Assembly (NCBI GenBank): GCA_963169635.1
Contig: CAUJDL010000052.1
Location: forward strand, 1 to 64,000
Direction: 5' to 3'
Source: Bacteroidota bacterium
Lineage (GTDB): Bacteria; Bacteroidota; Bacteroidia; Chitinophagales; Chitinophagaceae
DNA: 64,000 nt
Part shown: in pieces, positions 57,701-59,992 of the stretch
How positions within the stretch are numbered: the stretch's first letter is position 1
Layout of the letters: the number at the start of each line of letters is the position of its first letter
Notes under the pieces: model-generated
The model's input: the letters and a program-made list of their open reading frames with translations, nothing else
The model's database searches: none
What the model was told of the DNA's origin: nothing
Position numbers and translations under genes: made by a program

Positions 57701-58867
57701 TTATTGATAAGTACATTGTACAATAATTTCTATATTTTCTGCAACATCGCTATCATCTACTTCAAATTTTTTAATTTTTATTTTAAATGTACTGTTTAGT
57801 GTAAGAACACCATCATTTACTTTTATACTACCTGTTGCTTTTATTTTTTTAGTAATACCATGTAAGGTTAAATTGCCTTCTGCAGTTACTTGATAAGTAT
57901 CATTTTTAGCAAAGGTTACAGCAGCTATATTAATAATATTTCCAACAAATTCACTTTTAGTAAATTTGTCGCTGTGCATATATTTATCGCTATTAAAAGT
58001 TTTTTGCATTAGCTCATTTTCAAAATGAAAACCTTTAATTAATGCAGCAAACTGTACTTTGCCATTTTCTGCAATACTACTTATTACTTGTGTGTTTGTA
58101 GCTTCAATAGTTTCGGCAGAGGTTACAGATAAAAATTTTATTTGTCCCTTAGTGCTTTTAAAAGTTTTTTCTGTTTTTGCTATAGGCTTACTACTATCTT
58201 TTTTAATAGTTGTTTGTAAAGTTGTGGTAGTATCTTTTTGTTCTAAAGGTGCTGCATCTGTAGCTCCTTTTGTTATTACAGCTTCGTTAAGTTGTATTTG
58301 TCCAAGAATATAACCAGTTAAAATTCCTTTCATGGTTATTGATGTGTTTTCTGTAACTGTTTGTTGTTGTTTTAATCTGCCAGAAACAGAAGTGCCTTCT
58401 ATACCTGTGTGTAAATACACAACAGTGCTCATTTCATCTGTTACAATTTTTTCTATAGTACCACTAATTTCTACTACTTTATTAGTGTATTTGTTATTAG
58501 CTGCTGTTTCGTTTGTTTGAAATTCATTAATAAGCATAGCAGCTGTAATACCAATACTTTTTTCTTTATTTACATCTCTTCTTGCAACTGTAGGCTGATA
58601 AAAAATAAAATACCAAATAGTAAAACCTGTAATTATTGTTGCTAAAAGTGTAAGCCAAACTATTGCTTTTTTATTTTTATAATTTACTAAACCATAAATA
58701 AGTAATCCTGCAACAGGTATTAAACCTATTATAAGCCAAAGAATTTTTGTAGCTATTGTAAAATCTTTTCTTTTAAATAAATGTAATAAAGTAAGTACAA
58801 TTACAGGCAGCCATGCAATACCAATAATAGCAAAAACCCAAGGCGTTTCTTTTAATACATTAAACAT
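57701..58867 (-). CDS. Membrane protein with OB-fold-like and YceI-like domains
   Basis: A 388-aa three-part protein. The N-terminal 92 residues hold three hydrophobic helices (around 10-27, 40-60 and 72-92), resembling small PLDc_N-type membrane modules. Residues about 112-200 resemble the tRNA_anti-like OB-fold family (KVVEISGTIEKIV, then TVVYLHT and VSGRLKQQQ). A Thr/Lys-rich linker precedes a C-terminal YceI-like domain (about 230-388; GQIKFLSVT, GNLTLHGITKKIKATGSI). YceI proteins are lipocalin-like and bind hydrophobic ligands. It lies just downstream of the MerC gene and is probably co-transcribed. Confidence 0.85.
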   Translation of the reverse strand: MFNVLKETPWVFAIIGIAWLPVIVLTLLHLFKRKDFTIATKILWLIIGLIPVAGLLIYGLVNYKNKKAIVWLTLLATIITGFTIWYFIFYQPTVARRDVNKEKSIGITAAMLINEFQTNETAANNKYTNKVVEISGTIEKIVTDEMSTVVYLHTGIEGTSVSGRLKQQQTVTENTSITMKGILTGYILGQIQLNEAVITKGATDAAPLEQKDTTTTLQTTIKKDSSKPIAKTEKTFKSTKGQIKFLSVTSAETIEATNTQVISSIAENGKVQFAALIKGFHFENELMQKTFNSDKYMHSDKFTKSEFVGNIINIAAVTFAKNDTYQVTAEGNLTLHGITKKIKATGSIKVNDGVLTLNSTFKIKIKKFEVDDSDVAENIEIIVQCTYQ

Positions 58868-58884
58868 AATATTTTAATTTTTTA

Positions 58885-59277
58885 TTAATGATTACAATCA
58901 TCGCTATGTGCATGATTATGCACTCTACAAGAACGAAAATTAATGATATGTGCTGTAACAATTAGAATAACAGCAGGAATTAAAAACCAAATATGCCACT
59001 CATGCCAAATTTGTTTTACAAATAAAAAGATAATTCCTACAGTAAAAATAATAAAAGGTAAAAAGCTGTGATGATGTTTTTTATATCCATGATACAATGA
59101 GTATGCACCAATAATAAAAGCTAAAAAAATCATGCTATACTCAAACCAATCATTTTCTATAATATTAATTCCAAACAAAGGCAAGCTAGTCATTACTAAA
59201 GGCAATACAGCACAATGTATAGCACATGCTATAGATGTGGTAATTCCTAATGCATCCCAATTTATTTTAAAATTCAT
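58885..59277 (-). CDS. MerC domain-containing membrane protein
   Basis: A 130-aa protein with four hydrophobic segments and the MerC signature GITTSIACAIHCAVLPLV, whose cysteines bind metal in mercury-resistance homologues. The C-terminus is His/Cys-rich (SCRVHNHAHSDDCNH), consistent with metal handling. Bacteroidota homologues near Fur-family regulators are thought to move zinc or another divalent metal rather than mercury. No mer genes are nearby. The promoter carries an operator-like palindrome. Confidence 0.9.
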   Translation of the reverse strand: MNFKINWDALGITTSIACAIHCAVLPLVMTSLPLFGINIIENDWFEYSMIFLAFIIGAYSLYHGYKKHHHSFLPFIIFTVGIIFLFVKQIWHEWHIWFLIPAVILIVTAHIINFRSCRVHNHAHSDDCNH

Positions 59278-59285
59278 AAAGAGTG

Positions 59286-59315
59286 CAAAGATAATAAATG
59301 CAATTATGTTGCAAA
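59286..59315 (-). promoter_or_regulatory. Promoter of the MerC operon with embedded palindrome
   Basis: On the minus strand TTTG (59315-59312) and TATCTTTG (59293-59286) are separated by 18 bp, a near-ideal Bacteroidota promoter. The perfect inverted repeat TGCAA-N5-TTGCA (59299-59313) overlaps the TTTG element and fills most of the spacer. That is where a repressor would block RNA polymerase. The -7 box ends only 8 nt from the ATG at 59277. Confidence 0.65.
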
Positions 59316-59353
59316 AATTATCTTAATTAAAAAATAAACTCAGTATGTTGATG

Positions 59354-59361
59354 TACATTTG
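59354..59361 (+). promoter_or_regulatory. -7 promoter box of the SCO gene
   Basis: TACATTTG, a full TAnnTTTG match ending 7 nt before the ATG at 59369. It lies inside the longer frame that begins at ATG 59345, which argues for the downstream start. Confidence 0.45.
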
Positions 59362-59368
59362 CAACATT

Positions 59369-59992
59369 ATGAATAAGAAAAAGTTATTGTATTATGCTGC
59401 TTCGTTTGTAGTATTTATTTTAATATTTTGGGCAGCTTTATATTTATTTACAGATACATTTAATCAAAAAAGATTAAAAGAAAGATCTATCGTTCGTGAG
59501 TTTGCTTTTTATAAAGAAGATGGCAGCATATTTACTAATGCTAATATGCAAGGAAAAGTTTGTGTAGTAGAATATTTTTTTACTACATGCCCAAATATTT
59601 GTCCTGTAATGAATAATAATATGAAAAAAGTATATGAAGCTTTTAAAAATGAACCAGACTTTTTAATTGTTTCTCATACTTGTGACCCTAAAAGAGATTC
59701 TGTAGCTAAGCTAAAAAAATATGCAGATTCATTAGGTGTAGATACAAAAAAATGGGCTTTCTTAACTGGCAGAAAAGATAGCTTATATAATATGGCAAGA
59801 GTAAGTTATGGAATAGATGACCCACATAATATTGTAAAGGATATTAAAGACGATTTTTTGCACTCTCAATTTTTTGCTTTGGTAGATAAAAATGGCTCTG
59901 TAAGAGGGCAAGTATATGATGGCTTAAAAGATAAAGACATTGAAAAACTGAAGAAAGACATTAAATTATTATTGAAAGAAAAAAACAAATAA
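59369..59992 (+). CDS. SCO1/SenC family copper chaperone-like protein
   Basis: From ATG 59369 (207 aa) the protein starts MNKKKLLYYAASFVVFILIF, a membrane anchor. The thioredoxin-like SCO domain has the copper-binding Cx3C in FTTCPNICPVM (Cys74, Cys78) and the third ligand His165 in FLHSQFFALVD. SCO proteins deliver copper to cytochrome oxidase CuA or act as thiol reductases. It overlaps the downstream Fur-family gene by 1 bp (TAATG), so the two are translationally linked. Confidence 0.92.
   Translation: MNKKKLLYYAASFVVFILIFWAALYLFTDTFNQKRLKERSIVREFAFYKEDGSIFTNANMQGKVCVVEYFFTTCPNICPVMNNNMKKVYEAFKNEPDFLIVSHTCDPKRDSVAKLKKYADSLGVDTKKWAFLTGRKDSLYNMARVSYGIDDPHNIVKDIKDDFLHSQFFALVDKNGSVRGQVYDGLKDKDIEKLKKDIKLLLKEKNK

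Follow-up and report, generated by a model that had tools for sequence, protein, structure and literature searches.

A conserved palindrome over the promoter of a MerC-family gene is a predicted operator of a neighboring, probably Zur-type regulator in the Chitinophagaceae

The palindrome within the promoter of a MerC-family gene is best interpreted as the operator of the neighboring Fur-family protein, which would be a Zur (zinc uptake regulator) repressing MerC, a probable zinc importer. We assign this reading a probability of roughly 0.86. In the proposed mechanism, a Zur dimer with zinc bound would sit on TTGCAAC-N3-GTTGCAA, which reaches across the spacer and -33 element of MerC, and would thereby exclude RNA polymerase from the promoter; under zinc shortage Zur would release the box and MerC would be made. 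MerC, a membrane protein with conserved Asp, Cys, His, and Asn residues, would then probably bring in zinc. The site, the promoter geometry, their conservation, the lack of the site in genomes without the regulator, and the presence of the box before zinc-uptake genes in relatives are read directly from sequence, and it is from these that we infer binding of the box by the regulator, zinc as the signal, repression, and zinc import by MerC. The features of the locus within the window, meaning the whole 64,000-nucleotide stretch of DNA that was analyzed, are listed in Table 1.

Table 1. Predicted features of the MerC and SCO-Fur locus, in coordinates of the window
Feature	Position	Strand	Basis
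MerC-family membrane protein (PF03203), proposed zinc-repressed target	58885..59277	-	Pfam
MerC promoter -7 element TATCTTTG	59286..59293	-	matches consensus TAnnTTTG
Predicted Zur-type operator, 17 bp, ATGCAATTATGTTGCAA; family consensus TTGCAACNNNGTTGCAA	59298..59314		conservation across relatives
Palindrome core TGCAA-N5-TTGCA	59299..59313		motif match; originally reported finding
MerC promoter -33 element TTTG	59312..59315	-	overlaps right arm of operator
Probable -7 element TACATTTG of SCO-Fur operon	59354..59361	+	promoter reading
SCO1/SenC-family protein, first gene of divergent operon	59369..59992	+	Pfam
Fur-family regulator, proposed Zur; sole PF01475 match in genome	59992..60408	+	Pfam

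The core, TGCAATTATGTTGCA, is a perfect palindrome that covers the -33 TTTG plus most of the MerC promoter spacer. On the MerC strand, TTTG is followed after 18 bp by TATCTTTG, where the Bacteroidota sigma-A promoter has TTTG and TAnnTTTG approximately 19 bp apart; TAnnTTTG is the consensus -7 element according to sections of two published studies (PMC9723704, PMC7366714). The preliminary description had reported a perfect palindrome overlapping TTTG and lying in the 18-bp spacer of the MerC promoter, with a Fur-family gene two genes away on the opposite strand, and both statements hold exactly, the Fur gene lying behind SCO and divergent from MerC. Conservation extends over 2 bp more than the palindrome itself: the box consensus TTGCAAC-N3-GTTGCAA has 14 fixed positions, 12 of which are matched in the window.

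In the window (59277-59293), 8 nt separate the MerC -7 element from the start codon, and the spacing at SCO is similar at 7 nt; the MerC 5' leader would thus be only a few nucleotides long. Among the relatives (loci L011 to L163), the distance from the MerC -7 element to the start codon was 7 or 8 nt in 32 of 72 and no more than 13 nt in 51 of 72. Leaders shorter than 10 nt make up about 3.7% of those in Bacteroides thetaiotaomicron, as given in the relevant section of one study (PMC7366714).

Using Pfam, the three genes of the locus were assigned with scores above the family cutoffs: 89 bits for MerC (cutoff, 27.6), 51.4 bits for FUR (PF01475; cutoff, 23.1), and 91 bits for SCO1-SenC. The genome (2.23 Mb in 91 contigs, 99% complete) contains one match each to PF01475 and PF03203, both at this locus, and across the loci examined SCO shares the operon of the regulator. 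No merA, merR, or merT was identified beside MerC, where the neighbors tested were SCO, Fur, a YceI/tRNA_anti-like gene, and an epimerase-like gene. The gene downstream of MerC (57701-58867) combines a tRNA_anti-like region with a YceI domain.

To place the site in its family context, 195 family genomes were considered. Matches to the regulator were found in 148, and the remaining 47 had no Fur match. The 131 genomes with a listed regulator match of at least 147 bits were taken as the orthologue set and the other 64 as the comparison set. A first set of 90 Fur loci was drawn from 89 of the 131 (G158 being represented twice); among the remaining 42, inspection covered G004 (L254, L327) and G155 (L255) only. 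The second set of 80 loci, partly overlapping the first, includes Sediminibacterium, Lacibacter, Niastella, Ilyomonas, Limnovirga, and Agriterribacter, genera of the Chitinophagaceae, and the window is therefore most probably from this family too; the closest named relative is a Chitinophagales metagenome-assembled genome whose regulator shares 80% identity with that of the window. Culturable species with the same locus include Sediminibacterium goheungense (L210), Lacibacter cauensis (L216), and Niastella vici (L248).

A box with matches at 12 or more of the 14 fixed positions was present at the MerC promoter in all 84 divergent MerC/SCO-Fur loci of the first set (14/14 in 30 loci, 13/14 in 34, and 12/14 in 20) and in all 72 divergent loci of the second, although these counts are not independent events, as the loci are related by descent. 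In each spacer the highest-scoring stretch was taken as the box, so that its fixed letters are partly selected; shuffled spacers were scored in the same way, and 24 of 7,800 reached 12/14 (50 dinucleotide shuffles per spacer, both sets pooled). Six loci were left out of the 84-locus count as a MerC match was missing beside SCO-Fur (L031, L036, L111, L113, L117, and L123). Those left out of the 72-locus count were L206, L220, four loci cut by contig ends (L183, L217, L219, and L246), and L212 and L215, which repeat L111 and L113, respectively. Box positions 3 to 5 and 11 to 16 (counted from 1) were identical in 84 of 84 loci, and GTTGCAAA, which also supplies the -33 TTTG, was found in 74. A TAnnTTTG element was located 18 to 22 bp beyond TTTG in 72 of the 84 relatives, most frequently at 19 bp, and was not found in the other 12.

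Loci at which either the regulator or MerC is missing were then compared. MerC matches were identified in six of the 47 Fur-less family genomes, five of which have a full-length MerC (L164, L165, L167, L168, and L170); no box was found in the 140 bp before these five genes, the best stretches scoring 7 to 9 of 14. SCO still adjoins MerC at L165, L167, and L170. L167 retains TTTG and TATCTTTG separated by 19 bp without the palindrome, and L165 retains TATCTTTG with TTTG 16 bp upstream; no such pair was found at L164, L168, or L170. In G143, MerC is on a separate contig and carries the box (L166), and the SCO-Fur locus of the same genome (L123) has none. Among seven SCO-Fur loci without an adjacent MerC, namely the six omitted from the first set and L327, six had no box, L111 being the only exception, and the second-set loci L206 and L220 had neither an adjacent MerC nor a box. 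From the Fur-less loci, G143, and the SCO-Fur loci without MerC, it follows that the box goes with MerC and occurs together with the regulator. The conservation of the site and its absence where the regulator is lacking strongly support the proposal of the preliminary description that the Fur-family regulator controls MerC here.

The exception, L111 (the same contig as L212), belongs to G112, a genome 69% complete in which no MerC match was found; an intact box stands upstream of its SCO-Fur. This could be an orphan operator, or MerC could have been lost or left unassembled.

Since the two promoters stand back to back, one operator might govern both, with the regulator controlling SCO and itself in addition to MerC. 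In the window a half-site, TTTGCAACAT (59357-59366), overlaps the SCO -7 region, and among L011 to L163 the distances from the end of the operator to the SCO -7 element cluster at 37 to 39 bp (17 loci) and 48 to 50 bp (32 loci), approximately one DNA turn apart, which could reflect phasing or shared descent. We nevertheless regard such dual control as unlikely. The half-site is not retained in two congeners (L012 and L013), and the place where a SCO -33 element would be expected is downstream of the operator. In the window, 39 bp separate the operator from the start of TACATTTG; among the 76 relatives that have such an element, this distance is 37 to 50 bp in 56, so that SCO-Fur is unlikely to be blocked directly. 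The self-control of SCO-Fur suggested previously is not supported, as the site is clear of the SCO-Fur promoter and most SCO-Fur loci that have no MerC beside them lack it.

The regulator, a protein of 138 residues, has the fold and domain of the Fur family, with its Pfam match to PF01475 and its predicted structure (pLDDT of 82) aligning with known Zur structures. The top rows of the structure comparison were holo XcZur (Z score, 13.9) and Escherichia coli Zur (Z score, 13.8), with 132 residues aligned in each case, but Fur and PerR rows were within 1 Z unit of these, so that Zur is not separable from Fur or PerR by this comparison. When the PDB sequences were searched with the family profile, Mycobacterium tuberculosis FurB/Zur ranked first (41.9 bits) and PerR next (38.2 bits). 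The four cysteines of a structural zinc site in two CxxC motifs (C98, C101, C134, and C137) were identical in 20 of 20 sequences; in a second alignment of 30 sequences, C98 and C101 were identical and C134 and C137 were conserved in at least 90%. H66, C80, C84, H89, D91, H93, and H95, candidate ligands for a Cys/His/acid sensor site of the Zur kind between the two domains, were identical in both alignments, with model residues 85 to 88 having a pLDDT below 50. The curated Zur equivalog PRK11639 was the best of six weak NCBIfam hits at 34 bits, and the regulator was not filed under this family as the score is below its cutoff of 167 bits.

Boxes elsewhere in relatives bear on which metal is sensed. 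Exact boxes were identified in 48 of the 195 family genomes at 54 sites, 36 at the locus of the regulator and 18 elsewhere. Among the latter, L087 and L102 precede a further MerC gene, L093 precedes a MerC gene at a contig end (its SCO-Fur probably being on another contig), and L091 precedes a further Fur-family gene; at least two (L096 and L097) are inside long open reading frames (ORFs). A scan of the class found exact boxes in 18 of 295 genomes, at 21 sites, with four hits (L310 to L313) inside ORFs and taken as chance. At L299 the box precedes a fur-znuA-ABC ATPase-znuB-type (ABC-3) permease cluster. Two boxes (14/14 and 13/14) stand between fur and cobW-MerC at L305, and a 13/14 box stands between fur and cobW at L282, where a MerC-like gene follows further on (by alignment). 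A 12/14 box at L288 precedes a ZIP gene followed by fur, and in three genomes from one genus of the same family (L315 to L317) ZIP and Fur diverge around an 11/14 box. A MerC-like gene and Fur diverge around two boxes (13/14 and 11/14) at L320 and L321. The Fur-family genes beside znu, cobW, and ZIP have diverged from the regulator in the window, to which they are related but perhaps not orthologous. Counting against a class-wide rule, only six of 25 out-of-family loci (L256 to L280) had a 13/14 or 14/14 site in the scanned stretch, and nine of 18 larger class regions had no site of at least 12/14.

The placement of COG0523 genes behind Zur sites is an established mark of zinc limitation, as stated in part of a published study (PMC2770081). 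In relatives, then, the operator precedes zinc-uptake genes, those of the znuA/ABC/znuB type and cobW, and more weakly ZIP, and in this genome it stands at the MerC promoter only. Together with the COG0523 mark, these positions lead to the regulator being best read as a Zur, with zinc rather than iron most likely the metal.

SCO proteins are a family of copper chaperones. A protein that binds the palindrome and senses iron, manganese, copper, mercury, or another signal would agree with the presence of SCO in the operon of the regulator (copper), with the naming of MerC for mercury, and with the near tie of Fur and PerR in the structure comparison. The box before znuA/znuB-type genes, cobW (COG0523), and, less strongly, ZIP in relatives argues against it, as does the lack of merA and merR among the tested neighbors, and we consider it improbable by a wide measure.

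The site is notable for its position and conservation and not for its copy number. The window contains one exact copy of the palindrome and 51 matches with up to two mismatches, versus 73 expected, and the whole genome contains nine exact copies, eight of them inside ORFs, which is about chance level for a gene-dense genome; plain motif counts were therefore dropped as evidence. A control in which TGCAAN5TTGCA was read backward (1 versus 9) was not used, since reversal swaps TGCA for ACGT and makes a poor control. All 15 genomic sites within two mismatches of the 17-mer were inspected, and only the MerC site is at a plausible promoter; L071, 47 bp ahead of a groES-like ORF (named by eye), was rejected as one arm is broken. 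The preliminary description had named a lack of further promoter copies in the genome as grounds for rejecting the idea; none was found in this genome, but relatives do have such copies. The regulon here would consequently be one unit. Across the family, the exact motif was present in 46 of the 131 genomes with a regulator orthologue versus 2 of the 64 without, one Fur-less genome (G169) having it inside an ORF. That the palindrome serves another, unlinked regulator or reflects mere promoter constraint is very hard to credit. In its favor, the right arm overlaps the -33 element and would be constrained anyway; against it, the left arm is no promoter element and yet all 84 loci share its GCA, L167 keeps both promoter elements at 19 bp but has no palindrome, and the exact motif is found so largely with the orthologue.

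With Zur as the preferred regulator, the simplest reading of MerC is that it is probably a zinc-repressed, zinc-importing protein. D8, C18, H21, C22, P26, H110, and N113 of MerC were identical in 16 of 16 sequences, including that of the window, and in a second set of 22 sequences the same residues were identical except D8 (at least 90%). Neither an ABC-3 (ZnuB-type) nor a ZIP match was found in the four genomes of the genus that were searched, and the genome of the window has an NRAMP gene. ZIP (PF02535, E value of ≤0.001) was rarer in genomes with the regulator orthologue (29 of 131) than in the others (38 of 64), in raw counts uncorrected for descent, and as a test of MerC as an importer this trend is suggestive only. 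ZnuB-type PF00950 (<1e-15) did not differ, with 10 of 131 versus 5 of 64, and neither ZIP nor ABC-3 was matched in 20 of the 47 genomes without Fur. It is conceivable, at slightly less than even odds, that the MerC proteins of these Bacteroidota are zinc importers and not mercury transporters, that MerC is a main regulated route of zinc entry in this genus, and that the Zur regulon has shrunk to a single promoter.

The system resembles known Zur proteins and their boxes in the Fur fold, the four structural cysteines, the dimer-sized palindrome over a promoter, and the zinc-uptake genes behind the box in relatives. It differs in the box itself, TTGCAAC-N3-GTTGCAA, and in having MerC as its main target, with the only promoter copy found in the genome. 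One review, in the part covered, names 7-1-7, 9-1-9, and 23-bp palindromes and does not contain the word Bacteroidetes (PMC6103462), and no account of a Bacteroidota Zur box or of a link between Zur and MerC turned up in the searches made of open-license papers. Like the MerC mercury transporter (PF03203), the protein here matches the Pfam model over the whole domain; unlike it, it has no mer operon beside it, and its partner is a Fur-family gene, with cobW or MacB-like genes as partners in some relatives. The analysis provides a concrete predicted Zur box for a family of the Bacteroidota, tied to a target that generally carries a mercury-resistance annotation. Should the reading be correct, MerC in these bacteria ought to be annotated under zinc acquisition, and metagenomic counts of mercury genes based on MerC would be inflated.

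Several further observations were made near boxes in relatives. At six of the off-locus family sites (L088, L095, and L098 to L101), the exact box immediately precedes a gene for a thioredoxin-reductase-like flavoprotein in which a CNR...HSHN stretch is conserved, assigned by Pfam at L101 (Pyr_redox_2) and by eye at the other five; this gene is a possible further member of the regulon. Two 12/14 boxes at L285 (10136-10607) precede a DUF4625 gene near Fur and a TonB-receptor-like gene (the latter by eye). Similar small lipoproteins, recognized by eye, lie near boxes at L300, L308, and L314. The gene before the regulator at L301 was dropped as a ZIP candidate, its only match being to DUF308 and below the cutoff.

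In Pseudomonas aeruginosa, PA4063 to PA4066 form a zinc-starvation ABC transporter system that has a Zur site and includes two small proteins of the periplasm, as described in part of one report (PMC8456098). The window has no such cluster; in relatives, a similar arrangement is seen where a box-bearing MerC lies beside an FtsX/MacB-type permease (L087, by Pfam), an ABC ATPase (L102, by Pfam), or both (L296, by eye). For two small proteins beside the MacB-like genes, neither Pfam nor NCBIfam gave a match, and for this reason they were not called relatives of PA4063 and PA4066. Small proteins that appear to be secreted also lie beside the box-bearing MerC at L087, L102, and L296, making these loci a candidate further zinc system.
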